From Methylotenera versatilis 301 (GTDB lineage Bacteria; Pseudomonadota; Gammaproteobacteria; Burkholderiales; Methylophilaceae): a stretch of 64,000 bases of DNA. Below, in pieces: positions 28,775-45,858 of this stretch. The stretch is taken from contig NC_014207.1 in assembly GCF_000093025.1 (NCBI RefSeq), positions 1,736,001-1,800,000 of the forward strand, in the 5' to 3' direction. Within the stretch, counting starts at the first letter, position 1. Each line of letters opens with the position of its first letter. A program made the position numbers and the translations under genes. The notes beneath the pieces are model-generated. The model saw nothing but the letters and a program-made list of their open reading frames with translations. It was not told the DNA's origin and did no database searches.

Positions 28775-28790
28775 AGGCACAAATTTTGCA
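28775..28790 (+). promoter_or_regulatory. Sigma-54 promoter upstream of the EpsA-like regulator
   Basis: AGGCACAAATTTTGCA fits TGGCAC-N5-TTGCW with one mismatch (A for T at the first base) and exact GG-N10-GC spacing. The predicted start site is near 28801, about 29 nt before the ATG at 28830. Confidence 0.7.
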
Positions 28791-28829
28791 TAGCTGTTAT
28801 TAATAGCACTAACTTTGAGTCAATTTAAA

Positions 28830-29675
28830 ATGTTAATGAACGCGAAAACGCCTGTCGAACACTCATTGCAGCACATTAAAAATGATAATAAATATAGAAA
28901 AAATCAAAATCCCATAGAGCCAAATTTATCTGAAAAAATATTTTCGATTATTGCCTCTTCATACAGCATTAATAAACATATTGATTTTTATAACTGGCTA
29001 CAAACCAGTGTGGCTGAGGTTTTACCGCATAATATGCTACTGGCTTGCTGGGGTGATTTTGATAGCAACTCGCAAAAATTTAACTTTAATTATGATGTCT
29101 CTTCCAATTTAGCGAACATCCGCACTCAAGCTTTATTTGATTCCCCAGAAAAAACTGATGCGCTTATGCGCCAGTTACACAAGACTTGGTCGGCTAATCA
29201 TTGCCGATGGCTGACTGTCAATAATCTTGACAATGTCGATGGAAATGACGAAATCAAATCAAAACTTCCCGACATATTTAACGAATTTAAATCATTACTC
29301 GTCTACGGTTTAAGTGATTTGCGCGCGAATAACGATTGTCTATATGTTTTCTTTAGTACAGATTCTACGTTTAATGTACAAGACTCATTAATGGGACTGC
29401 TAATGCCGCATATTGATAACGTACTTAGAAAAATTCAACACATTGAACCAGTAGACGCTTCGGAAGCTGAAAGTGTATCCGTGATCAAATCGTACAATCT
29501 GAGTGTGCGTGAATTAGAAATAATAGATTGGGTAAAGCAGGGTAAGACTGATAGCGAAATCGCAATGATTTTGTTCATCAGCCAAAATACAGTGAAAAGT
29601 CATCTGAAGCATGTTTTTGAAAAGCTAAACGTCTCAAGAAGAGCGCAAGCTGTCGCTAAATTAAGCTATAGCTAA
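28830..29675 (+). CDS. LuxR-family regulator resembling EpsA (PEP-CTERM/exosortase-associated type)
   Basis: A 281-residue protein with an N-terminal domain containing DFYNWLQTSVAEVLPHNMLL, ACWGDFD and YDVSSNLANIRTQALF, which recalls the EpsA group of regulators found with exosortase and exopolysaccharide loci, and a C-terminal LuxR helix-turn-helix: LSVRELEIIDWVKQGKTDSE with SQNTVKSHLKHVFEKLNVSR. There is no receiver domain, so it is not a classical response regulator. It has its own sigma-54-like promoter. A TTG at 28815 is a possible alternative start. The EpsA link is by remembered similarity and needs a search. Confidence 0.75.
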   Translation: MLMNAKTPVEHSLQHIKNDNKYRKNQNPIEPNLSEKIFSIIASSYSINKHIDFYNWLQTSVAEVLPHNMLLACWGDFDSNSQKFNFNYDVSSNLANIRTQALFDSPEKTDALMRQLHKTWSANHCRWLTVNNLDNVDGNDEIKSKLPDIFNEFKSLLVYGLSDLRANNDCLYVFFSTDSTFNVQDSLMGLLMPHIDNVLRKIQHIEPVDASEAESVSVIKSYNLSVRELEIIDWVKQGKTDSEIAMILFISQNTVKSHLKHVFEKLNVSRRAQAVAKLSYS

Positions 29676-29711
29676 GGTTACCGCACCAAATTAATGGTAC
29701 GTGTAACCTTA
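29673..29711. terminator. Bidirectional hairpin between convergent regulator and amt1 genes
   Basis: TAAGGTTAC (29673-29681) and GTAACCTTA (29703-29711) pair perfectly, and ACCA/TGGT inside the loop extends the structure. It overlaps the regulator's stop codon and separates it from the convergent ammonium transporter gene. There is no T-run, so efficiency is uncertain. Confidence 0.5.
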
Positions 29712-29723
29712 AACCATGAACAG

Positions 29724-30926
29724 TTAATCTTCTGCACTAGATGCAATTTTGTGTATGCTCAAATCTGCTCCGTCAAACTCTTCTTCCTGACCTAAACGGA
29801 TTCCAATGAGCTTCTTGAGTGTGCCGTAAACCACCGCACCGCCAATGAGCGCAATAACAACACCCAAGCCTGTTCCTAAAAGTTGTGACATAAAACTAAT
29901 GCCATCGACACCACCACCTGTGCCTCCAAGCGCTTTAGCTCCGAAAATACCTGCAGCAATACCACCCCAAGCACCACACAAACCATGTAGCGGCCATACA
30001 CCTAGGACATCATCAATTTTTAAGCGGTTTTGTGTCAGTGTAAAAGCCCAAACAAACAATATGCCTGCAACGCCACCAGTCACCAATGCGCCTAGAGGAT
30101 GCATAACATCTGAACCCGCACACACTGCAACTAAGCCAGCTAATGGACCATTATGCACAAAGCCTGGGTCATTTTTACCCATCACTAAAGCCGCCAATGT
30201 GCCGCCAACCAGCGCCATAAGTGAGTTAACTGCGACAAGCCCAGAAATACCTTGAATTGATTGTGCTGACATCACATTAAAACCAAACCAGCCAACAGTG
30301 AGGATCCATGCGCCTAGTGCTAAAAATGGAATATTTGAAGGTGGATGAGCATGTAAACGACCGTCTTTGCTATAGCGACCTTGGCGAGCACCCAATAAAA
30401 CTACAGCAGCAAGTGCAATCCAGCCACCCATCGCGTGAACGACCACGGAACCTGCGAAATCATGAAACTTAGCGCCAAATGTAGTTACAAGCCAATGTTG
30501 AATGCCAAAATGGTTATTCCAGGCGATACCCTCAAAAAATGGGTAAACAAATCCTACAATTAAAAAAGTGGCTGCAAGTTGTGGGTTGAATTTAGCGCGC
30601 TCAGCTATGCCACCAGACACGATGGCGGGAATGGCTGCAGCAAAGGTCAAAAGAAAAAAGAATTTAACTAAGCCGTAGCCATTTTTCGCGGCTAATACCT
30701 CTGCACCACTGAAAAAATTAATGCCGTAAGCAATGCTATAACCTATAAAGAAGTAAGCAATGGTCGATACTGAAAAATCCACCATGATTTTCACTAGCGC
30801 ATTTACTTGGTTTTTCTTACGGACGGTACCCACTTCTAAAAATGCAAAACCCGCATGCATAGCAAGCACCATAATGGCGCCTAATAATACAAACAACACG
30901 TCATTTGACGAAACTAATGCTTCCAT
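29724..30926 (-). CDS. amtB: Ammonium transporter (Amt/MEP/Rh family), copy 1
   Basis: A 400-residue polytopic inner-membrane channel with about eleven helices: LLGAIMVLAMHAGFAFLEVG, NHFGIQHWLVTTFGAKFHDFAG with the first pore segment, VVHAMGGWIALA containing the central-pore His, GWFGFNVMS, and WPLHGLCGAWGGIAAGIFG with the second His. It lacks the long N-terminal extension of the second copy and has no glnK beside it. Upstream are a sigma-54-like promoter and two NtrC-type palindromes, so it is probably the nitrogen-starvation-induced transporter. Confidence 0.94.
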   Translation of the reverse strand: MEALVSSNDVLFVLLGAIMVLAMHAGFAFLEVGTVRKKNQVNALVKIMVDFSVSTIAYFFIGYSIAYGINFFSGAEVLAAKNGYGLVKFFFLLTFAAAIPAIVSGGIAERAKFNPQLAATFLIVGFVYPFFEGIAWNNHFGIQHWLVTTFGAKFHDFAGSVVVHAMGGWIALAAVVLLGARQGRYSKDGRLHAHPPSNIPFLALGAWILTVGWFGFNVMSAQSIQGISGLVAVNSLMALVGGTLAALVMGKNDPGFVHNGPLAGLVAVCAGSDVMHPLGALVTGGVAGILFVWAFTLTQNRLKIDDVLGVWPLHGLCGAWGGIAAGIFGAKALGGTGGGVDGISFMSQLLGTGLGVVIALIGGAVVYGTLKKLIGIRLGQEEEFDGADLSIHKIASSAED

Positions 30927-30973
30927 TTCTCAATTTCCCCTAGAGTTTTCTAAAAAAATATCTAGGAAAATAA

Positions 30974-30989
30974 AGCAAATAGCGCGCCA
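30974..30989 (-). promoter_or_regulatory. Sigma-54 promoter for ammonium transporter 1
   Basis: Read on the minus strand, TGGCGCGCTATTTGCT matches TGGCAC-N5-TTGCW with one mismatch at the fifth base and exact GG-N10-GC spacing. The predicted start is near 30963, about 37 nt before the ATG. Confidence 0.75.
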
Positions 30990-31042
30990 ATACTTAAGCC
31001 ATTGATTTTAAGAGCTTATTAGTTTGAAAGCGGAGATGGAAG

Positions 31043-31057
31043 GCACTTAAATAGTGC
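31043..31057. promoter_or_regulatory. NtrC-type enhancer site 1
   Basis: GCACTTAAATAGTGC has the GCAC-N7-GTGC form of NtrC sites and is fully palindromic at both ends. It is centred at 31050, about 87 nt upstream of the predicted sigma-54 start. Confidence 0.72.
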
Positions 31058-31072
31058 TAGCCGTGGTGCATC

Positions 31073-31087
31073 GCACTATTTAAGTGC
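31073..31087. promoter_or_regulatory. NtrC-type enhancer site 2
   Basis: GCACTATTTAAGTGC is a second GCAC-N7-GTGC site centred at 31080, 30 bp (about three helical turns) from site 1, as in glnA-type enhancers. It is also the exact inverse complement of site 1, so the pair could form a 15-bp hairpin and act as terminator of the upstream hypothetical gene. Confidence 0.7.
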
Positions 31088-31117
31088 GAAATTGAGAATA
31101 ATCACTTGATATATTGT

Positions 31118-31810
31118 TTAGAGTAGGATGTTCCCTGAGCCATCTTTCAGCACCATACTACTTGCATCAGGATTACCAATCCAAAAATGATAAAACTCAC
31201 GCACAACCACTAAAAATAAGCGTCGATTATTTTTAATATTGAATAGCGGTAATGTCAGATCAACAGCCGTTCGATAAGATTTATGATTTTTGACTGGTGC
31301 ATTTTTCAAACGTACCAAGATAATTTTTGCCAGTTTAACGCGCGTATCGACCAAAGATTGCTCAGAACCCTCTTGGCGAAGCGCTTGTGCGTAGGCTTTT
31401 AATGGCCAATTTTCAGACGCATCAAATTTTTCAGTAGCTAAACTTTCCATCAACAACTTTAATGACGTTGGCAATGGCTTCCATTGCAATGGCGTAATGT
31501 CAAAGCCTGGGTTAATATTTAAAGCTGCAATGGCTTTAATATCCTCTTTCCAAAATGGATAAAACTCACGTGCCGCAGTCAAACAGTCATGCCAATCATC
31601 GGTAGGCACTGTTTCCATCAACGGCTCTACTGCATCGCGATACTCATTTCCATCTAACTCTTTGCCTGCAAGATTCACAATCAGCTTTTCTAAAAACTGT
31701 GAACGTCGGAGAAGCGCCGCACTAACAGCGCCCTTAGTCTGCAATAGCCTCAAATAAGCCCTGACGGCTTCATCCTCACGTGTTTGATCCATTAGATTGC
31801 AATTCTTCAT
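31118..31810 (-). CDS. Hypothetical protein with an internally duplicated domain
   Basis: I do not recognise this 230-residue soluble protein. Residues 16-87 and 137-210 are related: VRAYLRLLQTKG aligns with LKAYAQALRQEG, and REFYPFW with REFYHFW at the ends, with similar helical spacing between. This suggests two copies of a roughly 73-residue helical domain. There is no signal peptide or membrane segment. The start at 31810 is the first ATG; Met7 (31792) is an alternative. It lies upstream of the NtrC sites and is transcribed toward ammonium transporter 1, but a functional link is not shown. Confidence 0.7.
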   Translation of the reverse strand: MKNCNLMDQTREDEAVRAYLRLLQTKGAVSAALLRRSQFLEKLIVNLAGKELDGNEYRDAVEPLMETVPTDDWHDCLTAAREFYPFWKEDIKAIAALNINPGFDITPLQWKPLPTSLKLLMESLATEKFDASENWPLKAYAQALRQEGSEQSLVDTRVKLAKIILVRLKNAPVKNHKSYRTAVDLTLPLFNIKNNRRLFLVVVREFYHFWIGNPDASSMVLKDGSGNILL

Positions 31811-31960
31811 ATTGACTTCATAAAACTATATCTGATATGCGGTAGCTTTAGCTTACAATTCAACATAATAATCGACTTTATTTTAAGTACAAATAATTTA
31901 AATCATCGATAACGACATAAACGTTACCAATTAAAAGTAAAAATTAAGAAAGAACACCGC

Positions 31961-32275
31961 ATGGAAATTGCACTATTAGCCATCATTATTGGCATGGCTT
32001 GGTTTTGGCTTGATAGCATGGACAAGCGAGAACGCGCCGTTTTATTAGGTCACGAACTCGCTTCTCGATTTAATCTACAGTTACTTGATGAAACTGTGGC
32101 ATGTAGCAAATTATGGCTTGGACGTAATAGTCGCGGCCACGTGAAGTTTTTACGTACTTATGAATTTGAAGTCAGTGCGAATGGTGCTGATAGACTACAT
32201 TGCCATTTGATTTTACTCGGAAATCAACTTGGTACTTGGCATATCCCACCATATCAGCAAGCTTTTAATGATTGA
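31961..32275 (+). CDS. DUF3301-family membrane-anchored protein
   Basis: A 104-residue protein with an N-terminal hydrophobic helix (IALLAIIIGMAWFWLDSM-type, residues 2-20) and a conserved cytoplasmic part, KRERAVLLGHELASRFNLQL, LDETVACSKLWLGRNSRG and LRTYEFEVSANGADR. These features match DUF3301. No function is known for the family. It stands alone between divergent and convergent neighbours. Confidence 0.82.
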   Translation: MEIALLAIIIGMAWFWLDSMDKRERAVLLGHELASRFNLQLLDETVACSKLWLGRNSRGHVKFLRTYEFEVSANGADRLHCHLILLGNQLGTWHIPPYQQAFND

Positions 32276-32303
32276 GTAACGATTGGGTTTTTAAGTCAAA
32301 AGA

Positions 32304-33053
32304 CTAAAACTCATACTCAACCTGCATTCTAAAGGTGTTATTAGGTGCAGCGTCGCTCACACCAAATAGCAAGGCGGCATTATATTTTATCGCTTGCTTA
32401 TTCCCCACTGACACCTTACCAAATACTGCAGGTCCAAACCTGTGGGTTTGTTCAGATGTAGACGTCCAATCATTCCACTGGCCCATTTCTCCCATTCCCT
32501 GCAGACCAAGCTCAAATGATGGTTGCAAGCGATACTTAGCTTGCCATTGGTAGCCCATTTCAGTAAATCGACTTTCATCAGCATCATTTGGACCAAATTT
32601 ACGCTCAAAAAGAACGTTAGCATTAAGCTGTAGCTTGCCAAATTCTGTTTGAAATAATGGCCCAAACTTAAATTCATAAGGCTCGTTATTATTACTGGTT
32701 GGCGCTTCAAATTCTGTAATTAAGCCGATTTCTATCGGATATTTTCCAGTCTCAGTCAGTTGAAATTTGTTTTCCCACTCTGCTATAGTCAAGCCTTCTC
32801 CAGCCTCACTTTCACGTTTTAGATAAACTTCTGTAAACCAAAAGTCATTAACGCCATAGCCGAAACCTAGCGAGGTCACATTTTGTCGAGACCCATCCTG
32901 CAGCTTTGCTGTTCCGAATTTAAAATCTATTTCTTTTTCACCCTGCTCTACCATTGGGGTGTAGACATAATCTGCCGAGCCCGCCAGCGCTTCACTCATG
33001 TACAATGCACTCATTAACATACTAAAACCAAAAGTTAACTTACATCTCTTCAT
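32304..33053 (-). CDS. Predicted outer-membrane beta-barrel protein of the iron-uptake operon
   Basis: A 249-residue exported protein: signal peptide ending SEALAG (about residues 19-24 from MKRCKL), then alternating amphipathic strands such as KEIDFKFGTAKLQDGS and GFGYGVNDFWFTEVYLKRES, and a C-terminal MQVEYEF with terminal Phe, the usual BAM recognition signal. I chose the ATG at 33053 because GGAG lies 9 nt upstream; a TTG five codons earlier overlaps that site. It follows the FTR1 permease by 19 nt, so it is probably a porin-like or accessory outer-membrane member of the Fur-controlled operon. Confidence 0.78.
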   Translation of the reverse strand: MKRCKLTFGFSMLMSALYMSEALAGSADYVYTPMVEQGEKEIDFKFGTAKLQDGSRQNVTSLGFGYGVNDFWFTEVYLKRESEAGEGLTIAEWENKFQLTETGKYPIEIGLITEFEAPTSNNNEPYEFKFGPLFQTEFGKLQLNANVLFERKFGPNDADESRFTEMGYQWQAKYRLQPSFELGLQGMGEMGQWNDWTSTSEQTHRFGPAVFGKVSVGNKQAIKYNAALLFGVSDAAPNNTFRMQVEYEF

Positions 33054-33072
33054 TTCAAACAACTCCAATTAT

Positions 33073-33888
33073 TTAAATCTTTTTGTGAGCACTTTTCGCC
33101 CACTTCATTCCAGTAAGAATCAAAAGCAATACGGCAACATAAAACATGACTTGCATGCCAGATGGGCGCGCATCATAGCCAATCAAGCTATGCAGCAGCA
33201 TTCCAAACAAACCATTTTCAGGAATGAGTCGTGAGGTATCCCACAACGGAGATGCCATACTTGGCAACAAATCAGCTTGTATTAAAAATCTTGCGGCTGT
33301 TGATGCCATTCCTGCCGCTAGCAGCAAGACCAATGTTGCGGTTGTGGCAAAAAACCATCGCATCGGAACTCTTAATAAACCTGCATATATCGTGTAACCA
33401 ACAACAACACCCATGAAGGTGCCTATGAAGCCACCGATTAACATGTTGCTTAAAGTGTCACTGCCAGATGCCGCAATCCCATAGAGAAAAAGAACTGTTT
33501 CCGAACCTTCTCGCAACACAGCTAAACCTACAACCAACATTAAAATAGAACTCTCACTACGTCCTTCTCGTATATTGTTGCCTACATTGCGTGCATGCGC
33601 CGCAAGCTCTGCGCCATGCGTAGACATCCATATGCTATGCCAAGCGAGCATCACTACAGCTAAGCCAAGCACAATTGCATTGAACAACTCCTGACCAATA
33701 CCACTTGCAAATTCAGCAATGACGTCTGTAGAAGCTGCAACAATTGCAGAACCCAATAAGCCAAACATTAAGCCTGCGAATAACCAATAATTGCGCTTAG
33801 GCACATCCCGCGTCGCTGCAGAGACGATACCAATAATAATAGCGGCTTCAAGAACCTCTCTAAACACAATGACTGCTGTTCCAAACAT
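33073..33888 (-). CDS. FTR1-family high-affinity iron permease
   Basis: A 271-residue inner-membrane protein with about seven helices. Two REXXE iron-binding motifs are visible, REVLEAAII near residue 10 and REGSETVLFLYGI near residue 125, as in EfeU/FTR1. It should import ferric iron, fed by an oxidised iron-binding partner. The cupredoxin gene is 14 nt upstream, and the operon is preceded by a Fur box. No Dyp-type peroxidase (EfeB) or large EfeO is present nearby. Confidence 0.93.
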   Translation of the reverse strand: MFGTAVIVFREVLEAAIIIGIVSAATRDVPKRNYWLFAGLMFGLLGSAIVAASTDVIAEFASGIGQELFNAIVLGLAVVMLAWHSIWMSTHGAELAAHARNVGNNIREGRSESSILMLVVGLAVLREGSETVLFLYGIAASGSDTLSNMLIGGFIGTFMGVVVGYTIYAGLLRVPMRWFFATTATLVLLLAAGMASTAARFLIQADLLPSMASPLWDTSRLIPENGLFGMLLHSLIGYDARPSGMQVMFYVAVLLLILTGMKWAKSAHKKI

Positions 33889-33902
33889 AATATTCCTCAG
33901 TA

Positions 33903-34220
33903 CTACTTAGCGACAATCACGCCTTGTGCAGTTGCTTGGTTAAACTCACCAATAAATGGATAGCGGCCTGGCTTTAAAGGTCCAATGTAGATTTTAATGG
34001 TGCTATTTCCAGCAACCACTTTTTCCCGATTAAGGGTATAGCTCTCAAACTCTTCGGGACTTGCATCTTTATTAACTACAAACAGTTTAACTTTCTCACC
34101 AGCAGGCACTACCAATTCTGCAGGCTCGAATTTGTGGTCTTTAATGACTAAAGTAAATTCAGTTTCCGTTGCATATCCAACCAAGGGTGTTAATAGTAAA
34201 ATTGCGTATAAAAATTTCAT
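33903..34220 (-). CDS. Periplasmic cupredoxin-like protein of the FTR1 operon
   Basis: A 105-residue secreted cupredoxin-fold protein: signal peptide of about 17 residues, then FTLVIKDHKFEPAELVVPAG and VNKDASPEEFESYTL, close to EfeO N-terminal domains and FtrB. The C-terminal segment reads RYPFIGEFNQATAQG, with Asn where many relatives have His (FH-x-D/E-TA), so a classic copper site may be altered. The start at 34220 has an AAAGA-type site; an upstream ATG would lie inside the Fur box. It is the first gene of the iron operon. Confidence 0.83.
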   Translation of the reverse strand: MKFLYAILLLTPLVGYATETEFTLVIKDHKFEPAELVVPAGEKVKLFVVNKDASPEEFESYTLNREKVVAGNSTIKIYIGPLKPGRYPFIGEFNQATAQGVIVAK

Positions 34221-34247
34221 ACTAGATTCTTTCAATAAGCTTAGATA

Positions 34248-34270
34248 CAAATGATAATAGCTATCATTTG
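34248..34270. promoter_or_regulatory. Fur box
   Basis: CAAATGATA (34248-34256) and TATCATTTG (34262-34270) form a perfect 9-bp inverted repeat with a 5-nt centre, closely matching the Fur consensus GATAATGATAATCATTATC. It lies 28 nt upstream of the cupredoxin start and also 53 nt before hslO, but the iron operon is the natural target. Confidence 0.85.
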
Positions 34271-34322
34271 CGCTTGCAATAATTATTAATGTTATTTTTC
34301 ATCTAAATGTTAAAATGCAGGC

Positions 34323-35228
34323 ATGAAAACACACCAAGACACACTGCAACGTTTCTTATTTGAAAACACGCCCGTCCGTGGCAACCTAGTCAATCTCACG
34401 CAAACATTACAACAAGCGCTGAATAAACAGCATCTGCCTACAGGTTTGCGAAAAGCACTTGGCGAGCTAATGGCAGCCAGCGCCCTGCTCGCAGCGACAC
34501 TTAAGATGGATGGCTCTTTGGTGATGCAGATTCAAAGTAAAGGCGCGTTAAAACTCTTAGTTGTCGAATGTAACTCAGATGTTGGCAGCACTATAAAAAT
34601 GCGCGCCACGGCTAAATGGGGTGACGGAGTAACCGATAATCAGAATTTGTTTGAGCTAATCGAGCAAGGTCAATTTATGATTACGCTAGACCCAAAAGAT
34701 GGGCAAGCGTATCAAGGCATCGTGCCAATAGAAGGTGACAGCATTAGTGCGGTATTGGAAAACTACATGATGCGCTCTGAGCAAATTGATACCAAAATCT
34801 GGTTAAGTTGTGATGGCGAGTCTGCCGCAGGCATGCTGATACAAAAATTACCAGAGACCATGAATCAAGAAACGCAGATACATGATGAAGATATTTGGAA
34901 TCGTGTAGGCTATCTAGCTGGCACAGTGACTGATGAAGAGTTACTTAACTTGCCTACTGAAACACTAATTACACGATTATTTCACGAAGAAGATGTGCGC
35001 CTGTTTGAATCTAGCATCACACAATTCTTTTGTAGTTGCACACGCGAAAGTGTCTCTAATATGTTGCGCATGTTAGGCGATGAAGAAATTAATAGCATTA
35101 TTGAAGAGCAAGGGAAAATTGAAGTGAACTGCGATTTTTGTAATGCACATTACGCCTTTGACAAGATAGACGCAGCGCAACTCCTAGTGACTGAAGCTGC
35201 TGTCATCACTAGCCCTAAAATTCACTAA
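34323..35228 (+). CDS. hslO: Redox-regulated chaperone Hsp33
   Basis: A 301-residue cytosolic holdase activated by disulfide formation. The zinc-binding cysteines are FCSCTRES (C-x-C, about residues 237-239) and CDFCNAHY (C-x-x-C, about residues 271-274). The N-terminal domain includes TGLRKALGELMAASALLAAT and KDGQAYQGIVPIEGDSIS. It appears monocistronic. Confidence 0.96.
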   Translation: MKTHQDTLQRFLFENTPVRGNLVNLTQTLQQALNKQHLPTGLRKALGELMAASALLAATLKMDGSLVMQIQSKGALKLLVVECNSDVGSTIKMRATAKWGDGVTDNQNLFELIEQGQFMITLDPKDGQAYQGIVPIEGDSISAVLENYMMRSEQIDTKIWLSCDGESAAGMLIQKLPETMNQETQIHDEDIWNRVGYLAGTVTDEELLNLPTETLITRLFHEEDVRLFESSITQFFCSCTRESVSNMLRMLGDEEINSIIEEQGKIEVNCDFCNAHYAFDKIDAAQLLVTEAAVITSPKIH

Positions 35229-35270
35229 ATCATTAGAGAGTTGCCTAAGCTGTGGTTAGTTACACAGAGA

Positions 35271-35762
35271 CTATCTACACATCATAGGTAGAAACTCTGG
35301 GGCAACATTAGTTTTATTCTCGCCTTTCACTGTCATTTTATCAGGTGCTTTAGCGTTACCACACACCCATGTGACTGGTACGATTTGAGACTCCTCAATT
35401 ACCGCAGGGCGCATTGACAAGACTTTACCTATAATTTTTGAATGGGCTTTATTGCCAAAAGTCATATGAATAGCGCCGTTTTTTACTTCAACCGAACTGA
35501 TCAAATTACTCACAATTTTATCTGCATCAGGCAATCCAGCTTCTTTATTATCAGCGGGTAATGTTTTAGTCAGCTTCCATGCTGCCGCAATAGGCTCTTT
35601 CACAATATCAGCCAATGGCAACGCTGCATTGATTTGTTCTTTAACAATACGACCCAAGCTGGAAGGTATGGCTATCATCGCCAAGATTGCAATAATCGCC
35701 ACGACTACCATCATTTCGATAGCAGAAAAACCAGCTTGCTTAGACTTTAATTGATTACTCAT
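35271..35762 (-). CDS. Type IV pilin-like protein
   Basis: A 163-residue prepilin. The leader ends KQAG and the mature chain starts FSAIEMMVVVAIIAILAMIA, with the Glu at mature position 5 and the long N-terminal assembly helix. Two C-terminal cysteines (TWVCG and MMCR) can close the D-loop of major pilins. Its ATG overlaps the TrmH methyltransferase stop (ATGA), an unusual partner. No other pilus genes are in the window. Confidence 0.85.
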   Translation of the reverse strand: MSNQLKSKQAGFSAIEMMVVVAIIAILAMIAIPSSLGRIVKEQINAALPLADIVKEPIAAAWKLTKTLPADNKEAGLPDADKIVSNLISSVEVKNGAIHMTFGNKAHSKIIGKVLSMRPAVIEESQIVPVTWVCGNAKAPDKMTVKGENKTNVAPEFLPMMCR

Positions 35763-36544
35763 AATGCCTGCCGTTTGCGCTCAAATAGACAAATAGCCGC
35801 TGCAGCGCCCGCATTAAGCGACTCCACAGAACCAAACTGGCTCTCTGTCATAGGAATAGTAATACTTTTATCCGCTGCAGCGATAGTTTGTTTTCTCAAG
35901 CCTGCACCTTCATTGCCAATCACGAACGCCGTTGCCTGCGTTAAATCTTGCGCATATAGCGACTCGCCATGCATAGCAGTTGCATAACTATTGCCATTAA
36001 AATTATCTAACTCAGCAATTAAGTTAGCACGTTCTACAATTGGCAATACAAATTGTGCGCCCTGCCCGCCACGTAAGGCTTTTGGTGACCATGCGTCAGT
36101 ACAACTCGTACTCAGATAGACGGCTTCTACACCTGCCGCTGCCGCTGTGCGCAACATGCTGCCCAAATTACCTGGGTCTTGAATATCTTCTAGCATCAAC
36201 GCAAACTTAGGTTGTTCTGGCGCAGTTAATTGTGGAATTTTAACCAACGCCAAAATACCAGTAGCACTTGCAACAGGCGTTAGCTCAGCAAACATCAAGG
36301 TCGGCAACATGATGGTTGGGATTTCAGTCAAGGTTTGAATCAACCCAGTCGCTTCGATGCTGCTTTTGCCTTCTGGAATAATGATCATCACTGGCTCGCC
36401 AAAAGTAGCCATATACGCTTCTATTAAATGCACGCCATCTAATAAGGTTTGTCCTTCACTACGACGCTCACGTGAGTTATCAGCTAATTTTTTAAGCTGC
36501 TTAAAAACTGAGTTGTCGCGCGAAATGATATGTTTGAATGACAT
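35759..36544 (-). CDS. SpoU/TrmH-family RNA 2'-O-methyltransferase
   Basis: A 261-residue SPOUT enzyme with an N-terminal substrate-binding domain (about residues 1-95) and a knotted SAM-binding domain. Motifs: 1 LEDIQDPGNLGSMLRTAAA with catalytic-region Asn and Arg, 2 FVIGNEGAGLR, 3 IPMTESQFGSVESLNAGAAA. The rRNA or tRNA target position is not evident. It overlaps the downstream pilin gene by 4 nt. Confidence 0.92.
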   Translation of the reverse strand: MSFKHIISRDNSVFKQLKKLADNSRERRSEGQTLLDGVHLIEAYMATFGEPVMIIIPEGKSSIEATGLIQTLTEIPTIMLPTLMFAELTPVASATGILALVKIPQLTAPEQPKFALMLEDIQDPGNLGSMLRTAAAAGVEAVYLSTSCTDAWSPKALRGGQGAQFVLPIVERANLIAELDNFNGNSYATAMHGESLYAQDLTQATAFVIGNEGAGLRKQTIAAADKSITIPMTESQFGSVESLNAGAAAAICLFERKRQAL

Positions 36545-36689
36545 AGAACAATTGTTTACATATTAAAAATGACAGTTTAACTGAAACTCACTTGTGAGCG
36601 CATAAGGATTACAGTAAATTAGCTAAGTAGATAGAGTTTAAAATAATTATTAATCTACATTTAAACACTTATAAATTTCAGGAGGCAAT

Positions 36690-37422: not shown

Positions 37423-37450
37423 AAAAAGCCTACAATAAGTGGGCTTTTTT
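37423..37450 (+). terminator. Rho-independent terminator after aqpZ
   Basis: AAAAAGCC (37423-37430), an 11-nt loop, GGCTTTTTT (37442-37450). An alternative pairing of GCCACTT with AAGTGGGC is nested in the same segment. Confidence 0.7.
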
Positions 37451-37473
37451 ATAGCTAACGTTATAATGCACGC

Positions 37474-38211: not shown

Positions 38212-38259
38212 GCTAATAATGTTTAATTGACTTTTTACTCAAAAGAATAGGTTTATAAA

Positions 38260-39192
38260 GTGAAAAAATTATGTGCTTTTCTCGGCTTACTCGCGGTTAT
38301 TTTTAGTAGTCAAAATGTGAATGCACAAACCTTACGAGAACGTATTGCCGAGAGATTGGCGTACCGTCAGCAAGTAGATGAAATAGAGCAAGAAGATGGC
38401 GATAATAAGACCTTCAATCCAGAAAATGCCACAGTGCAACGCAACATCAGCTATGGCGCAGATGGCGCGCAAAGTTTAGATGTTTATATTCCGAAAAATG
38501 CACATAACGCGCCAGTAGTATTGATGGTGCATGGTGGCGCTTGGCGCGTAGGTGATAAAGCCATGAATCGTGTGGTGGAGAACAAAGCCAATAGATGGTT
38601 AGCTAAGGGCATCATTTTTGTTTCTATCAATTACCGCATGTTGCCAAAAGCTGATCCGCTTACGCAAGCCAACGATGTGGCATTAGCACTGGCAAAAGCA
38701 CAATCTCTGGCGCCAACTTGGGGTGGTGATGCTAAGCGCTTTGTCCTGATGGGACATTCAGCAGGCGCGCATTTAGTGGCACTCATTACAGCTAACGCTA
38801 ACATTGCAAAACAACAAGGCGCTCAGCCATGGCTAGGCACCGTGATGCTCGATAGTGCAGCCTATGACCTTGAAAAAACCATGTCATCCAAACACCTACC
38901 TTTTTACGACAAAGCCTTTGGCAACGATAGCGCCTTCTGGAAAAGTGCTTCGCCTAGTTATCAACTCTCGCAAAAAACCATACCTATGCTAGCGGTTTGC
39001 TCAACCACAAGAAAAGACAAACCGTGCATGCAAGCAAATGCTTTTATTGAGAAAGCGACTAAGTTTGGTACACAGGCAAACGTTTTTCCTGTAGCTATGT
39101 CTCACAAAGAGATTAACGAAAACTTAGGCTTACCAAGTGATTACACCGATAAGGTTGAATCTTTTATGCGCTCACTTGGACTACCACTGTAG
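38260..39192 (+). CDS. Secreted alpha/beta-hydrolase (esterase/lipase family)
   Basis: A 310-residue hydrolase with a Sec signal peptide (MKKLCAFLGLLAVIFSSQNVNA). The oxyanion motif HGGAWRVGDK (about residues 91-100), nucleophile elbow MGHSAGAHLVA (about residues 166-176), and a late His (MSHKEINE) outline the catalytic triad of the hormone-sensitive-lipase/BD-FAE type. Substrate unknown. The start is a GTG at 38260 since the next Met is within the mature region. The lipocalin gene follows after 41 nt. Confidence 0.87.
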   Translation: MKKLCAFLGLLAVIFSSQNVNAQTLRERIAERLAYRQQVDEIEQEDGDNKTFNPENATVQRNISYGADGAQSLDVYIPKNAHNAPVVLMVHGGAWRVGDKAMNRVVENKANRWLAKGIIFVSINYRMLPKADPLTQANDVALALAKAQSLAPTWGGDAKRFVLMGHSAGAHLVALITANANIAKQQGAQPWLGTVMLDSAAYDLEKTMSSKHLPFYDKAFGNDSAFWKSASPSYQLSQKTIPMLAVCSTTRKDKPCMQANAFIEKATKFGTQANVFPVAMSHKEINENLGLPSDYTDKVESFMRSLGLPL

Positions 39193-39233
39193 CCTCACGC
39201 ATTAGAAACTAAACTTAAATTATAAAAATATTA

Positions 39234-39806
39234 ATGAAAAAACTTCTTATTTGGCTTGTAGCTCTTTCACTCACGGCATGCATGGGCGCACCTGAAAATG
39301 TAAAGGTGGTTGATAGTATTGATGCAAATCAGTACCTTGGCACTTGGTATGAAATTGCCAGACTAGACCATTCATTTGAACGTGATTTAGAAAAGGTCAC
39401 AGCAACTTATAGCTTGCGTGACGATGGTGGCATTAAAGTCATCAATCGTGGCTTTAATCCCAAAACCAATGAGTGGAAAGAAGCAGAAGGCAAAGCTTAT
39501 TTTGTTGATCCACCCAATGCCGATAAAACCAATACAGGCAAGCTTAAGGTATCATTTTTCGGACCATTTTACGGCGCTTATAACATCATGGTGTTAGATA
39601 AACCATACTATAACTATGTGATGGTTTGTGGACCTGACAAATCATATTTTTGGATACTTTCTAGAACCCCACAACTCACCTACCCAATTAAACAACATTT
39701 GATTGCGCAGGCTAAAGAGCTCGGATTTGATACAGAACAATTAATTCACGTTGTACAAAGTGCTGAAATCATCAATTACAAAGCAGGACCGCATGTGAAT
39801 AAATGA
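39234..39806 (+). CDS. blc: Outer-membrane lipocalin lipoprotein
   Basis: A 190-residue bacterial lipocalin: lipoprotein signal ending LSLTACMG, then the lipocalin motif YLGTWYEIARLDHSFERDLE and NRGFNPKTNEWKEAEGKAYF, FFGPFYGAYNIMVLD and YFWILSRTPQL. It likely binds lysophospholipids or other lipids at the cell envelope. It follows the secreted esterase, which could be functionally related. Confidence 0.93.
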   Translation: MKKLLIWLVALSLTACMGAPENVKVVDSIDANQYLGTWYEIARLDHSFERDLEKVTATYSLRDDGGIKVINRGFNPKTNEWKEAEGKAYFVDPPNADKTNTGKLKVSFFGPFYGAYNIMVLDKPYYNYVMVCGPDKSYFWILSRTPQLTYPIKQHLIAQAKELGFDTEQLIHVVQSAEIINYKAGPHVNK

Positions 39807-39852
39807 GACGTAACCTATAATCACTTTCATGACTAACGGATTGTTTGTTACG

Positions 39853-41985
39853 CTAAGATTTACTAAGCTGGTTTTGAAGTAAGGCTTCAAACTCAATTGC
39901 AGGTATAGGTTTACTGAAGTAATAACCTTGTAGCTCATCACAACCAATCGATTGTAAATAATCGTGCTGGAAACGCGTTTCTACGCCTTCTGCAATCACC
40001 TTCATGCCTAAGCTTTGTCCAAGCACAATAATGGCTTTAAGGATGGCAGTATTCGCTGGATCATTCTCAAGATTGCTGACAAAAGCTTTATCGATTTTTA
40101 GTCTATCTATTGGAAAATCCTTTAGATAAGCCAAACTTGAATAGCCTGTGCCAAAATCATCGATGGCAAGCTTAATCCCTATGGTTTTTAGGGCATGAAG
40201 TGTTTGTATAAATTTTGCAGCATCATCAATTAATGTGCTTTCAGTAATTTCCAGTTCAAGACAATCTGGATCCAGGTTGGTAAGCTCTAAAGTATTTTTG
40301 ATAGTCTGTGCAAGATTAGGCTGTTTAAATTGTCGAGGTGATACATTGACCGCAATGGGAATGGGTCGTCCCATTTTTTCTTTTAACTCTTTGGCTTTTT
40401 TACAAGCTTCAATAAGCACCCATTCACCGATACTCTCAATAAGTCCAGTCTCTTCCGCAATATGAATGAATTTAACAGGCGGAATCAGTTCACCTTCAGG
40501 AGTTTGCCAGCGAATTAAAGCCTCGGCACCACTAATAAGACCGGTTGCAAAATCTACCTTAGGTTGATAATGCAGTAAGAGCTCACCGTTTTCAATTGCA
40601 AGCCGTAAGCGGTACTCCATTGTCACGCGCTCAGTTAACGCTTCATTCAGCTCTTGCGTGTAAATCTGATAGTTATTACGTCCAGCTTTCTTAGCTTTAT
40701 ACATGGCAGTATCAGCATTTTTAAGCAGCGTATTCGGCTCGATACCATCATCCGGATAAATACTGATGCCTATGCTAGAGGTAACAACGTAATCCAGCTC
40801 ATTAATGACGCAAGGCGCGGCAACAGCAGTCAGTACGCGCTGCATACTGATTAGGACGTCATTCACATTTTCGATATTAGTCAGCAGTATTACAAACTCA
40901 TCGCCTCCCAACCTCACTACAGTATCAACTTCACGAATACAGCTAGAGAGTCGTTTAGACATAATCAATAGCAACTGATCACCTACCTCATGCCCCATAC
41001 TGTCGTTGATGAGCTTGAACTGATCAAGGTCGACAAAGGCCACAGCCATTTTATTTTTGTAACGATCTGCAAAGTTGATAGATTGCTGGAGCCTATCATT
41101 TAGCATATAGCGATTAGGTAGACCAGTCAGGCTATCGTGCTTGGCTTGATGCTCTATTTTATGGTCGTAGTTTTTACGCGCGGTAATATCCTCAACCGTA
41201 CCTTCGTAATAGAGTAAGTTTCCAGCTTTGTCATGCACCATGCGGGCATTTTCAGAAATCCAGATCGTACTATTATCTTTTTTATACACTAATGATTCGA
41301 AGTTATGCACGCTTTGATTGGCTAACATCGCTTGCACAAACTCTTCACGACGACCAGGTGTCACATAAAGCTGTTGCTGAATATTGTTAAGAACACTAAT
41401 CAGTTCTTCAGGAGAGCTGTAGCCGTATATCTTGGCTAGTGCAGGATTAACAATCAGATAGTGCCCGTTTGGCGATGTCTGAAAGATCCCTTCAATCGCA
41501 TTCTCAAAAATAGAGCGATAGCGAAATTCTGCATCATGCAATGACTGTTCAGCAGCCTTACGTTGTGTAATATTCTGGATAAAGCCTTCTATCGCATGAA
41601 CCTTACCCTTTGCATTGTAAATCGGGTTACCTCGTTCACATACCCATATAATGTCAGTGTTTGCATGACGTATACGATACTCAACTTCGAAGCGTTTACC
41701 TTGCTTAACGGCTTCATCAATAGCATATCTAACTAACGCTCGATCATCCTTAAAGATAATTTCCTCATAAGAAACTAAATTATTGAAAATTAAATCATCG
41801 GGAAAATAACCCGTTAAATCTTTGCATCCATCACTTACATAAATCATGGTCCAGTGCTGATCATAAAGATTGCAATAAACTAAACCTTCCAGATTATCCA
41901 CAAGCGTATCGAGCATGCGCTGACGATCATGAACAAATGCATCAATGGAGATAAGAGATTTAGTTGTTGGTGATGGCAATTTCAT
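39853..41985 (-). CDS. PAS-PAS-GGDEF-EAL signalling protein
   Basis: A 710-residue cytosolic protein, probably a bifunctional c-di-GMP enzyme. Two PAS/PAC units occupy about residues 28-140 and 150-270. The GGDEF domain follows (HDSLTGLPNRYMLNDRL, active site VRLGGDEFVILL), then the EAL domain (EALIRWQTPEGELIPP, ELEITESTLIDD, AIDDFGTGYSSLAYLKDFPI, AEGVETRFQHDYLQSIGCDE). Both catalytic motifs are intact, so synthesis and breakdown of c-di-GMP are both possible. No membrane segment is seen. A sigma-54-like promoter lies upstream on its strand. Confidence 0.93.
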   Translation of the reverse strand: MKLPSPTTKSLISIDAFVHDRQRMLDTLVDNLEGLVYCNLYDQHWTMIYVSDGCKDLTGYFPDDLIFNNLVSYEEIIFKDDRALVRYAIDEAVKQGKRFEVEYRIRHANTDIIWVCERGNPIYNAKGKVHAIEGFIQNITQRKAAEQSLHDAEFRYRSIFENAIEGIFQTSPNGHYLIVNPALAKIYGYSSPEELISVLNNIQQQLYVTPGRREEFVQAMLANQSVHNFESLVYKKDNSTIWISENARMVHDKAGNLLYYEGTVEDITARKNYDHKIEHQAKHDSLTGLPNRYMLNDRLQQSINFADRYKNKMAVAFVDLDQFKLINDSMGHEVGDQLLLIMSKRLSSCIREVDTVVRLGGDEFVILLTNIENVNDVLISMQRVLTAVAAPCVINELDYVVTSSIGISIYPDDGIEPNTLLKNADTAMYKAKKAGRNNYQIYTQELNEALTERVTMEYRLRLAIENGELLLHYQPKVDFATGLISGAEALIRWQTPEGELIPPVKFIHIAEETGLIESIGEWVLIEACKKAKELKEKMGRPIPIAVNVSPRQFKQPNLAQTIKNTLELTNLDPDCLELEITESTLIDDAAKFIQTLHALKTIGIKLAIDDFGTGYSSLAYLKDFPIDRLKIDKAFVSNLENDPANTAILKAIIVLGQSLGMKVIAEGVETRFQHDYLQSIGCDELQGYYFSKPIPAIEFEALLQNQLSKS

Positions 41986-42033
41986 TTTTTGTAGATTAGT
42001 ACCATATAGAATCCATAAATTTTTACTTTAAAA

Positions 42034-42049
42034 AGCAATATTTATGCCA
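42034..42049 (-). promoter_or_regulatory. Sigma-54 promoter for the PAS-GGDEF-EAL gene
   Basis: On the minus strand TGGCATAAATATTGCT matches TGGCAC-N5-TTGCW with one mismatch and exact GG-N10-GC spacing; the predicted start is about 37 nt before the ATG. Confidence 0.7.
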
Positions 42050-42278
42050 CACATGATGATGAATGTAAGTGATGTCTTTATTGTTATAACTTAAAGGTAT
42101 GGCGCCAATACTTAGAGCATTAGAATTAATCAGCAAGTCAACATTTAGCGATTAAGTTCACTTTATAGGTGCGTCTATTTCAGAATATGCACCAAAGTTA
42201 AGCTGTTTGAATCAATTAACAATACCTGACAATAGCCAAACATATAGACAATCTGCAACAACACTGCATTTTTTGTGC

Positions 42279-42294
42279 TGGCGTGCATTTTGCT
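42279..42294 (+). promoter_or_regulatory. Sigma-54 promoter for the Cache/CheW gene
   Basis: TGGCGTGCATTTTGCT matches TGGCAC-N5-TTGCW with two mismatches (fifth and sixth bases) and exact GG-N10-GC spacing. The start would be near 42305, about 50 nt before ATG 42355. Confidence 0.6.
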
Positions 42295-42354
42295 TATCTG
42301 TATTTGAGAAATTCTATTTGTATCTACCACTACAATAATTTTACGGGTATGCGC

Positions 42355-44928
42355 ATGAGCCAAATTACTACGATTCAGCTTGATAATTTTCTCCCTTACA
42401 TGAGAGATGTCATTCGTTGTGAACAATCATTGCATGAGTTAAATCTGATGTGGCGGATGATTGAGTCTTCGGCAAAAATGAACTGTCCAACCGAAGCTAA
42501 AAGTATTCTACCTACGATGGCAGCAACTCGGGCTGGCTTTAATCGGCTAGAAAAAGAACTTGTCTTAAGCTTAGTGCAAGAAAAAGTTGCTACTGTGTTG
42601 AGTGAAATAGGTACCAAAGCGCAATATGTCATTGATATTTTGGTACGAAATCTTTATGAGCGTACTGCCGATGTAGGATTTCTAGCTACGGATAACGAAT
42701 TATGTGAGTTTGTTGCAGGTATATCAGGCAATGATGAGCTTATTCGCGCGCGTTTACGTGCCTACAGAAAAAAATACACTGTCTACGATGAAATCATTTT
42801 ACTAGATATAAATGGTAATGTTTTAGTACAAATTAATGATGAAACCCCTATTGAAGGCAGCTTAGACCCTCTTATTAAAGAAACATTAGCTTCAGATCAA
42901 TATGTCGAAACCTATCGCGCTTCTGACCTACGCCCTAGCAAAAATAAAGCGTTGATTTACTCTAAACGTATGCGACATCCTCACACTGGCGAAGTTATTG
43001 GCGTGTTATGCCTATGCTTCGATTTTGTTGAAGAAATGGCGAGTATTTTTAAATCACATGGCGACCCTTCAGAGCGATCTGTCATGTTGCTGCTTGATAG
43101 CGATAATTGCGTCATAGAATCTAGCGATAAGATATGGGTTCCTGTCGGTGCTGTAGTGCCAGTCAATGATGATATGCAATCAAACTTAAAAGTATTTAGT
43201 GGTCGTAAGTACTTGGTGAGTACCTTCACTTCCGATGGTTATCAAGGCTATATGGGGCCAAAAGGTTGGCAAGGCCAAGTGATGATTCCTGTAGACATTG
43301 CTTTTACTGGCAAGGAAACCAATACTTTAAAGACCTTAGACCCCGTCGTAGCTGAAGGCCTGCTTTCACATGCACAATCTTTCTGCCCGCCACTCTTTGA
43401 AGTCATGAATGCTGCCTCGACCATACGACGCGTGGTGTGGAATGGGCAGGTAATGACGGCAGGACAAAGCGGTGAGTTACTGAAATTAAAAACTGTTTTA
43501 GATCAAATTAGTGAAACGGGTACCCGCAGCAATGAATTGTTCGCTCAATCTATTAATGATCTATACGAAACCGTGCTCGCTTCAAGATTGCAAGACTCAG
43601 AATTTGTGTCCCATCTACTGGTTGATTTACTTGACCGCAATCTATATGAGCGTTCAGATGACTGCCGTTGGTGGGCTGTTACGCCAGAATTAAGAGCGGC
43701 GCTTGCTTCACAAACAATCGATAGCAAAACGGTCACTCAAATTACCGATATTCTCGAATATATCAATTCGCTATACACCGTCTATAGCCGAATATTTGTG
43801 TATGACAATACTGGTTGCATTATTGCCAGTACAAACCCAATGGAAGCTAGTGACTCAATCATAGGCACAAGAATAGACGAAACTACGCTTGCTCAAGTAA
43901 TGTCATTGCGTACAGAGCAACAGTATTATGTATCCCCTTTTGTAAATGACGCACTTTATAGCAATGCACCAACATACATCTACCATGCGGCCATTATGGC
44001 GCCAAACGGCAACTCTGTAGTCGGTGGTATTGGGATTGTATTTGACTCATCTACTGAATTTTTTGCCATGTTGCAGGGCGGTATTACAGAAAAAGAATCT
44101 GTGACTGCTTTTTATATTGATAGACAAGGTCTAATCATTTCGAGCACTGACCCAACTCGCCCTGTAGGCACCATGTTGGAGATTGATACTGATTTACTTA
44201 CCTTGCCCAATGGCAAAAGTACCTCTCGTATTGTGATACATGACGGACATTACTCAATACTTGGATGTAGTGTATCTAATGGCTATCGAGAATTCAAAGT
44301 CACAGATGGATACAAAGAAGATGTCATCGCTGTGGTTTATGATTCATTCGGAGAAGTGCGTAGCAGTTACAGCTCTGGCAACAACTCAGCATCAATTATT
44401 GATGTATCAATGACTCAATCAGCAGACCCTGAATTCGCAACATTCTTTATTGATGGTGGGCTGTTTGCAATAGAGGCTGAATATATACTTGAGGCACTGC
44501 CAGCATCTGAGGTTTCTCGGGTGTCTATCGGTAGTGGTTCAGAACGTGTAGGCGTGCTGGCCATACAACATGAAAACGAAGGGAAAACCTTTGCCTGGGT
44601 ATTCGACCTTGGATTTTTACTCAGCGGAAAACTTACCGTAGTTGATAGCAACAGCCAAGTGATTGTGATTGAGTATCAGCAACACAAAATTGGCCTACTG
44701 GTGGGTGCCTTACATTCCGTAGCTCAGTTTAATGAAAGCCAAGTGACGCCCACGCCGCTTGCAGTCAATAGAGACGGCGTATTAATCAAACAGATCATCA
44801 AGGCGAATAGTGGAAGACTTCTGATTCAAGCGATTGATATTCAATATCTGCTTAACATGCTCAGCAATCCATTTGAAGCAGTCGGTGATGATAAAAAAAT
44901 TGCATTAAGAATAGTTAACGGGAACTAG
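42355..44928 (+). CDS. Soluble double-Cache, CheW-like chemosensory protein
   Basis: An 857-residue protein without any transmembrane helix or methyl-accepting coiled coil. It holds two related sensor units: residues 83-220 and 413-565. NLYERTADVGFLATD (89-103) corresponds to NLYERSDDCRWWAVT (419-433), YTVYDEIILLDINGNVL to YTVYSRIFVYDNTGCII, and GVLCLCFDFVEEMASIF to GGIGIVFDSSTEFFAML, as in Cache-type folds. A third, partial sensor-like segment follows (570-660). A CheW-like domain closes the protein (about 683-825: ATFFIDGGLFAIEAEYILEA). It may couple a cytoplasmic ligand to CheA. Start at ATG 42355 (or 42349). Confidence 0.8.
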   Translation: MSQITTIQLDNFLPYMRDVIRCEQSLHELNLMWRMIESSAKMNCPTEAKSILPTMAATRAGFNRLEKELVLSLVQEKVATVLSEIGTKAQYVIDILVRNLYERTADVGFLATDNELCEFVAGISGNDELIRARLRAYRKKYTVYDEIILLDINGNVLVQINDETPIEGSLDPLIKETLASDQYVETYRASDLRPSKNKALIYSKRMRHPHTGEVIGVLCLCFDFVEEMASIFKSHGDPSERSVMLLLDSDNCVIESSDKIWVPVGAVVPVNDDMQSNLKVFSGRKYLVSTFTSDGYQGYMGPKGWQGQVMIPVDIAFTGKETNTLKTLDPVVAEGLLSHAQSFCPPLFEVMNAASTIRRVVWNGQVMTAGQSGELLKLKTVLDQISETGTRSNELFAQSINDLYETVLASRLQDSEFVSHLLVDLLDRNLYERSDDCRWWAVTPELRAALASQTIDSKTVTQITDILEYINSLYTVYSRIFVYDNTGCIIASTNPMEASDSIIGTRIDETTLAQVMSLRTEQQYYVSPFVNDALYSNAPTYIYHAAIMAPNGNSVVGGIGIVFDSSTEFFAMLQGGITEKESVTAFYIDRQGLIISSTDPTRPVGTMLEIDTDLLTLPNGKSTSRIVIHDGHYSILGCSVSNGYREFKVTDGYKEDVIAVVYDSFGEVRSSYSSGNNSASIIDVSMTQSADPEFATFFIDGGLFAIEAEYILEALPASEVSRVSIGSGSERVGVLAIQHENEGKTFAWVFDLGFLLSGKLTVVDSNSQVIVIEYQQHKIGLLVGALHSVAQFNESQVTPTPLAVNRDGVLIKQIIKANSGRLLIQAIDIQYLLNMLSNPFEAVGDDKKIALRIVNGN

Positions 44929-44944
44929 ATAATATTGATGACAA

Positions 44945-44979
44945 GATGAACGCCTGTACTGCAGGTGTTCATCTTTTTT
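44945..44979 (+). terminator. Strong rho-independent terminator after the Cache/CheW gene
   Basis: GATGAACGCCTG (44945-44956), a 5-nt loop, CAGGTGTTCATC (44962-44973) with one G-U pair, then six T residues. It isolates the downstream gene, which has its own promoter. Confidence 0.92.
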
Positions 44980-45027
44980 CATATCAGGAGCAAACCTCTT
45001 GACAAAAAAAGTCGACACGTTAAAGGT

Positions 45028-45043
45028 TGGTACAGACTTTGCT
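45028..45043 (+). promoter_or_regulatory. Sigma-54 promoter for the 249-residue hypothetical gene
   Basis: TGGTACAGACTTTGCT is a full match to TGGYAC-N5-TTGCW with GG-N10-GC spacing. It is 36 nt upstream of the ATG at 45079 and lies just after a strong terminator, an ideal promoter position. Confidence 0.82.
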
Positions 45044-45078
45044 TAATAAAAATACTATTAGTATTTAAAGCTTATTAA

Positions 45079-45828
45079 ATGATCAAAAATCAGAATGTCG
45101 AATCGACCACCACTCAAAACTCAAAACAAAACTCTATTTATTTAGGTTTGCAAAGTGTATTAACTGAACAAGAAGCAAATGAAGTCATTGAAAAGTGGTC
45201 GACCTATTTCAAAGGTACAGGATCAATATTCAATGGACTAAATAGTTTTGCAAAAGAAGTTTGTCAAACCTATGGCATTGCAGACCAACAACGAGATCTA
45301 TTAAGAGCTTTACACCGTGCATTACTCCACGGAGACAATGATGTGAGTGCAAAAGGGCTCAAAGACAGTACACGGAACAAACCATCGATTGAACCAGCTA
45401 TTGAATCGGCTACTGAATCAAGCACTGAATTGGACAATAGTGTCTACACTGCACTATTTAGCCACCAAGCGATCAACACCCCGGAATTTCTAACATTTCA
45501 GAGCTTACTTCTAAAAATTCTAGATTTATTGGAAAAGTTTGAAAATGGTATAAGCCAGAAGTTAAATCCCTTCTTAATAGAACTGATTCACAGCATGCCT
45601 TGGTCTGAAGGTCAGCAGAATCAGCTTCTATCGCTCATCAATACTGGCAAAACCATACAGTTGCGTACCTATATGCCTGATCAACTTAAGTCATTTTTAA
45701 AACATTTGCGCTCTTGGGTAGAGGCTGAAATAGGTAGCACTGAAGCAGCGAAGGTGATGAACGAAGCGATTGAGGCTGTTAAAAGTCAGCCTGAAAACCT
45801 CAACTACAATGTTAAAAAGTTTCTATAA
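45079..45828 (+). CDS. Hypothetical protein between the Cache/CheW and amt2 genes
   Basis: I do not recognise this 249-residue soluble protein. It has two helical regions (about residues 20-90 and 128-249) joined by a Ser/Thr/Glu-rich linker (IEPAIESATESSTELD, about 108-123). There is no signal peptide or membrane helix. Notable segments are LTEQEANEVIEKWSTYFKGT and WVEAEIGSTEAAKVMNEAIE. It has the best sigma-54 promoter in the window, and lies between a chemosensory protein and an ammonium transporter, so a role in nitrogen-linked signalling is a guess from context. Confidence 0.72.
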   Translation: MIKNQNVESTTTQNSKQNSIYLGLQSVLTEQEANEVIEKWSTYFKGTGSIFNGLNSFAKEVCQTYGIADQQRDLLRALHRALLHGDNDVSAKGLKDSTRNKPSIEPAIESATESSTELDNSVYTALFSHQAINTPEFLTFQSLLLKILDLLEKFENGISQKLNPFLIELIHSMPWSEGQQNQLLSLINTGKTIQLRTYMPDQLKSFLKHLRSWVEAEIGSTEAAKVMNEAIEAVKSQPENLNYNVKKFL

Positions 45829-45842
45829 GATAATATTTAATA

Positions 45843-45858
45843 AGGCATATTTTTTGCT
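45843..45858 (+). promoter_or_regulatory. Weak sigma-54-like promoter for ammonium transporter 2
   Basis: AGGCATATTTTTTGCT keeps GG-N10-GC spacing and a perfect TTGCT but differs from TGGCAC at two positions. It is about 98 nt upstream of the ATG at 45956. Confidence 0.45.

Follow-up and report, generated by a model that had tools for sequence, protein, structure and literature searches.

We analyzed a window of 64,000 nucleotides (nt), positions 1,736,001-1,800,000 of the 3.06-Mb single-contig genome of Methylotenera versatilis 301, which carries six putative sigma-54-type (RpoN) promoters in front of genes for regulation, ammonium transport, cyclic di-GMP (c-di-GMP) turnover and chemosensory-type signalling. 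The site at 28775..28790 (+; AGGCACAAATTTTGCA) precedes the gene for an EpsA-like LuxR-type regulator (28815..29675, +; TIGR03020, 188.5 bits, cut-off 170), and that at 30974..30989 (-; TGGCGCGCTATTTGCT) precedes amt1, an ammonium transporter gene (29724..30926, -; PF00909). The site at 42034..42049 (-; TGGCATAAATATTGCT) belongs to a gene for a PAS-PAS-GGDEF-EAL c-di-GMP enzyme (39853..41985, -), in which the GGDEF and EAL motifs are both present. The one at 42279..42294 (+; TGGCGTGCATTTTGCT) belongs to the divergent gene for an apparently soluble double-dCache and CheW protein, here called Cache/CheW (42355..44928, +; PF02743, seen as one stretch, and PF01584). The last two, at 45028..45043 (+; TGGTACAGACTTTGCT) and 45843..45858 (+; AGGCATATTTTTTGCT), precede the gene for a protein of 249 amino acids (aa; 45079..45828, +) and a second ammonium transporter gene, amt2 (45956..47458, +; PF00909). 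A previous sequence-only reading had reported the six with GG-N10-GC spacing and TTGCW, and all the 16-mers were found exactly where it had placed them; each of the six shows the TGGCAC..TTGC context, with 10 bases between the GG and the GC.

A loose match to the consensus is by itself no evidence, since TGGCACG-N4-TTGCW with up to three mismatches gave 122 matches in the window and 123.6 in shuffles. The six sites stand out by their intergenic position and by facing a gene start within about 100 nt. Six sites scoring at least 12.4 were present in the 4,972 promoter-oriented intergenic strand-bases of the window, whereas random DNA, examined as 400 dinucleotide shuffles, never gave more than 2 such sites (mean 0.11); from the rate inside genes, 0.30 sites would be expected (Poisson P ~7e-7 for six on that rate). 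The RpoN matrix used was approximate, and the threshold was chosen after the sites had been seen, just under the weakest of them (12.5), so our main reliance was placed on relatives. The sequence-only reading had also found no comparable site elsewhere in the window, and this was borne out: the sole other intergenic match of at least 11.5, at 63508-63523 (-; TTGCACAAATTTTGCA), lacks the GG and has no same-strand gene nearby. A chance origin of the six sites in the window is unlikely.

Upstream of the amt1 site lie two NtrC-type boxes, GGCACTTAAATAGTGCT at 31042..31058 and CGCACTATTTAAGTGCG at 31072..31088, both exact fits to GCAC-N7-GTGC (NtrC box and sigma-54 consensus sequences are given in passages of PMC8743547 and PMC3224663). 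Among the 30 amt1 loci fetched in the genus, our own included, the sigma-54-type site scored at least 12 bits in every case; one or more exact boxes, beginning 67-99 nt upstream of that site, were present in 27, and two boxes, 30-31 bp apart, in 20. Conserved boxes at enhancer distance, the mark of an NtrC regulon, were thus found for amt1.

The same mark was found for the GGDEF-EAL and Cache/CheW genes, by way of a box that both would share. It lies between their divergent promoters, at 42157..42173, with one core mismatch here and as an exact box in several relatives (e.g. L014, L017-L020 and L071). Its nearly equal distance from the two sigma-54-type sites, 105 and 107 bp, suggests a single enhancer serving both genes. 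A conserved sequence resembling an NtrC half-site, TGCACCA, is present at 42188..42194. When 11 sequences of this intergenic region were aligned, 44 of the 366 columns were invariant: the two sites, the box and the half-site accounted for 34 in 56 columns (9/16 in the GGDEF-EAL site, 11/16 in the Cache/CheW site, 8/17 in the box and 6/7 in the half-site), compared to 10 in the 310 columns elsewhere. The GGDEF-EAL site was present in all 10 Methylotenera-type orthologues that are divergent to a Cache/CheW gene.

For the Cache/CheW gene itself we collected 69 orthologous loci, from Methylotenera, Herbaspirillum, Noviherbaspirillum, Curvibacter, Thiobacillus and others, the closest named records being those of Methylotenera. 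Since the relatives begin with MSQI or similar, the start of the gene is most likely the ATG at 42349 or 42355, and not the GTG at 42283 that overlaps the site. A site of at least 9 bits was present within 250 nt of 53 of the 69 orthologues, compared to 109 of 907 other genes of the same loci (odds ratio 24); at 12 bits the counts were 31/69 and 30/907, and an exact NtrC-type box occurred within 400 nt at 19/69 and 33/907, respectively. Of the 16 loci without a site, 10 with a long same-strand reading frame upstream were scored from 300 nt before to 60 nt after its start, and 9 of these 10 have a site of at least 9 bits. The L060 site falls 8 nt within the longest reading frame of a gene whose end is 272 nt upstream of Cache/CheW, and the sites of L061 and L063 are some 200-240 nt away. 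Five of these leading upstream genes were scanned and all encode GGDEF-EAL proteins, three with a GAF match over the Pfam cut-off. It is therefore possible that up to 62 of the 69 loci belong to a sigma-54 unit.

The other three sites of the window also recur in relatives. Of 28 EpsA-like loci of the genus (own included), 18 have an upstream site of at least 11 bits: 3/3 at 87-100% identity, 2/10 at 52-59%, 11/13 at 42-50% and 2/2 among more distant ones. The gene for the 249-aa protein opens a cassette in which it is followed by amt2 and by a gene for a 120-aa protein (47458..47820, +) that ends in [KR]Y[VI]Gx[IL]R and whose start overlaps the amt2 stop by 1 nt. The 249-aa protein, modelled as all-helical, matched no Pfam or NCBIfam family and none of its 31 homologues is informatively named, and the 120-aa protein matched no Pfam family. 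The 249-aa family occurs in 8 of 150 family genomes. The gene order is kept in four other genera (L181-L184), three times adjoining secA and once elsewhere, and because the order stays while the neighbours differ, the cassette seems to travel as a unit. A site of at least 12.6 bits lies no more than 420 nt before the 249-aa gene at seven of eight loci, namely the window, L010, L011 and all four cassettes from the other genera. All three close relatives carry the amt2 site unchanged, and a site lies between the 249-aa gene and amt in two of the four other cassettes (5/7 loci counting the three close relatives). Upstream of 249-aa relatives in L007 and L009 we also noted a common stretch, GTGCACCAGATA(A/T)G(A/C)GCTATCGC, between the sigma-54-type site and the gene, possibly a leader element. 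In the window, a terminator-like hairpin with a T-run, read by eye, lies between the Cache/CheW and 249-aa genes (44945..44979, +).

Conserved NtrC boxes at enhancer distance were not found for these three genes. No NtrC-type box, with up to one mismatch, was present within 300 nt upstream of the EpsA, 249-aa or amt2 site in the window, and an exact box was found at none of the 28 EpsA-like loci and at none of eight cassette loci (in the 420 nt before the 249-aa gene). This makes another activator likely, and the EpsA-like, 249-aa and amt2 genes are, on these sequences, likely under a different activator than NtrC. PrsR controls PEP-CTERM sigma-54 promoters, a system to which EpsA is linked; none of the eight clear sigma-54 activators that the genome encodes reached the 502.6 bits of the PrsR family (TIGR02915), the best scoring 409.1. 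One of the eight is NtrC (TIGR01818, 700.3 bits, cut-off 558.6), and rpoN is encoded as well (PF04552, 2.1e-66).

Beyond the window, TGGCRY-N5-TTGCW occurs 66 times in the genome, compared to 12 for the reversed pattern, and 10 of the 30 sites whose flanking DNA was examined are intergenic, so that the 17-kb stretch is a cluster of sites and not the entire regulon. Further intergenic sigma-54-type sites of this genome precede a GGDEF-EAL gene and a gene whose product has a type IV pilin-like N-terminal methylation motif (L173 and L164). The composite of an NtrC box and a sigma-54 site has 3 occurrences in the genome and 0 for the reversed pattern; in 52 genomes of the genus the count was 96 (a row sum, some of them inside genes) vs 2. 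The three composites precede amt1, a gene for an NMT1-type binding protein, and a gene for an ANTAR regulator followed by one for an NMT1_2 binding protein (the latter two at G000:C1:2461515 and 2936151; L216 and L217), which fits the kinds of gene expected for nitrogen acquisition.

Taken together, we consider it probable that all six sites are true sigma-54 promoters and that two or more activators act on them, NtrC driving amt1, GGDEF-EAL and Cache/CheW, and another activator being used by the cassette and the EpsA-like gene. The sequence-only reading had proposed one RpoN group joining nitrogen supply, c-di-GMP and chemosensory signalling. For amt1, GGDEF-EAL and Cache/CheW this is plausible, as rpoN is encoded, the sites recur and NtrC-type boxes are present; the idea of a single group is not supported, and the six probably do not share one activator, with three of them lacking a box and eight activators available. 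The conservation that it proposed to examine was seen, the sites recurring before the same genes in relatives. Under nitrogen limitation, phosphorylated NtrC would bind the paired amt1 boxes and the central box of the divergent pair, and from there would activate sigma-54 RNA polymerase at the three promoters. The products would be an ammonium transporter, a c-di-GMP enzyme, and the tandem-dCache protein, the CheW domain of which should dock on a CheA array or on a partner enzyme. Ammonium capture could thereby be coupled to motility or attachment, through c-di-GMP and chemosensory control, while the 249-aa/amt2/120-aa cassette and the EpsA-like regulator would use sigma-54 with their other activator.

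Several observations weigh against this interpretation. Three of the 30 amt1 loci lack an exact box (none in L104 and L106, one with a mismatch in L102), as do 50 of the 69 Cache/CheW loci within 400 nt, and 7 of the 69 have no site before the gene or before a leading gene. The mismatch in the central box of our own genome means that the composite pattern misses it. The site of the EpsA-like gene was found at only the two of ten loci at 52-59% identity mentioned above. Moreover, the P-II/amtB operon, which sits elsewhere in the genome, separate from amt1, has a strong sigma-54 site (18.3), yet a search of the 345 nt upstream that allowed one mismatch found no NtrC-type box; not all expected targets are thus marked by it.

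This last case bears on the alternative that all six promoters form one NtrC regulon, the boxes before the EpsA-like, 249-aa and amt2 genes being too degenerate or too distant to be seen. NtrC would naturally control an ammonium transporter such as amt2, a clear box is missing from the P-II/amtB promoter too, and one-mismatch boxes do precede the 249-aa gene in L182-L184 (in L182 and L184 they follow the sigma-54 site) and amt in L181 and L011. However, the contrast between 27 of 30 amt1 loci with an exact box and none of the EpsA-like or cassette loci, the empty 300 nt before the three sites in the window, and the supply of other sigma-54 activators in the genome make this alternative unlikely. 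More improbable still, it appears, is a mixed set in which part of the six are promoters and the less secure sites (amt2 and EpsA) are chance matches to a loose consensus. Such a view can draw on matches inside genes, at 5286 (-) and 38499 (-), whose scores equal the best of the six; on the amt2 site, the lowest (12.5), which begins with A; on L012, where the 249-aa site has lost its GG; and on the ten EpsA-like loci at intermediate identity, where L114 and L118 alone have a site (315 nt away in L118, while L115 offers only 39 nt to scan). It sits poorly with an amt2 site kept identical in the three close relatives and with the sites before amt in two other cassettes, and also with the 11 of 13 EpsA-like loci at 42-50% identity, where the site scores at least 12 bits and lies 77-105 nt before the match.

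The Cache/CheW protein deserves separate consideration. Its CheW domain is clear (PF01584, 40.2 bits, cut-off 23.5), and its first half is internally duplicated (E 3e-16), while Pfam sees one dCache stretch. The AlphaFold2 model, with a mean predicted local distance difference test score of 73.5, has folds that match DctB- and PctA-type sensor domains and CheW, with CheW structures (2qdl, 2ch4) being some of its best matches. A Pfam search returned dCache and CheW only, with no signalling domain of the methyl-accepting chemotaxis protein (MCP) type, and no clear membrane helix was found by Kyte-Doolittle hydropathy, the only method applied, with no dedicated membrane predictor; the 19-residue mean peaks at residue 215 (1.82), in what the model shows as a strand of the dCache unit. 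In two genomes (G069 and G040) we noted a second Cache/CheW paralogue, 35% identical. CheA was present in all 32 sampled carrier genomes from the 69 loci, and within the genus in 15/15 carriers vs 19/37 non-carriers, a co-occurrence confounded by phylogeny and genome size, which has to be set among the points against our interpretation.

We tentatively propose that this protein is a nitrogen-starvation adaptor, which would be made only with active NtrC, would sense a cytosolic metabolite through its Cache domains, and would plug into CheA arrays or the GGDEF-EAL partner to reset taxis and c-di-GMP. It may instead stand outside any CheA array, as a metabolite-sensing partner of the neighbouring GGDEF-EAL enzyme that uses the CheW fold as a docking surface, an option that we hold just as tentatively. 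GGDEF-EAL-type neighbours recur at 30 of the 69 loci, some of which lie on short contigs, and they do so in differing arrangements: as the PAS-type orthologue, divergent in Methylotenera or convergent downstream in Thiobacillus and others, or as another GGDEF-EAL type upstream on the same strand. The lack of an MCP signalling domain in the Pfam search points the same way, as does the carrier G051, which has the long CheA type only. The presence of CheA in every carrier sampled speaks for the array, without implying contact. Several of the Curvibacter and Rhodoferax Cache/CheW loci have an amt gene 5-9 kb downstream, which in L072 is accompanied by an adjacent P-II gene.

Among the remaining genes of the window, an FTR1-type iron permease adjoins a cupredoxin-like protein at 33073-34250.

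These results turn a promoter observation into a conserved, testable link, in Methylotenera-type and other Betaproteobacteria, by which c-di-GMP and chemosensory signalling would be tied to nitrogen status, and expose two uncharacterised conserved parts: the cassette of 249-aa, amt and 120-aa genes, and Cache/CheW together with the GGDEF-EAL gene beside it. If the link is true, single-gene deletion should alter swimming or attachment once ammonium is exhausted; if the adaptor proposal is true, Cache/CheW would be a conserved betaproteobacterial signalling module, and a sensor fold normally found outside the cell would act within it. In the literature searched, the Cache/CheW module was nowhere described. 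It resembles CheW adaptors and dCache chemoreceptors in its CheW fold and in the DctB/PctA-type dCache folds of the model, and differs from them in joining two dCache units and one CheW domain in one protein, with neither an MCP signalling domain nor a clear membrane helix.

Links between nitrogen control and c-di-GMP are already known, in the passages of the reports concerned. In Azospirillum the link runs through PII (PMC7646526). In Burkholderia cenocepacia, NtrC acts positively on motility genes and EAL-domain genes (PMC5491218), a betaproteobacterial regulon with targets like those proposed here; 'cache' and 'chew' have no occurrence in the main text of that report, and no record titled Burkholderia is among our 69 loci. 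The E. coli-type NtrC/sigma-54 regulon, as far as the published passages describe it, shares with the present case the TGGCAC..TTGC site, palindromic upstream NtrC boxes and an ammonium transporter target; here, in contrast, the transporter gene is amt1 and not that of the P-II/amtB operon, and the candidate targets include a c-di-GMP enzyme and Cache/CheW with one common central box. Another related case is AmtE of Azoarcus olearius, described in the passages on it as an ammonium transporter fused to GGDEF/EAL domains, with expression enhanced 36-fold (PMC8467165): ammonium transport and c-di-GMP turnover are joined under nitrogen control there and, on our interpretation, also in Methylotenera, where they would be separate genes, joined by their promoters, together with a chemosensory-type protein.

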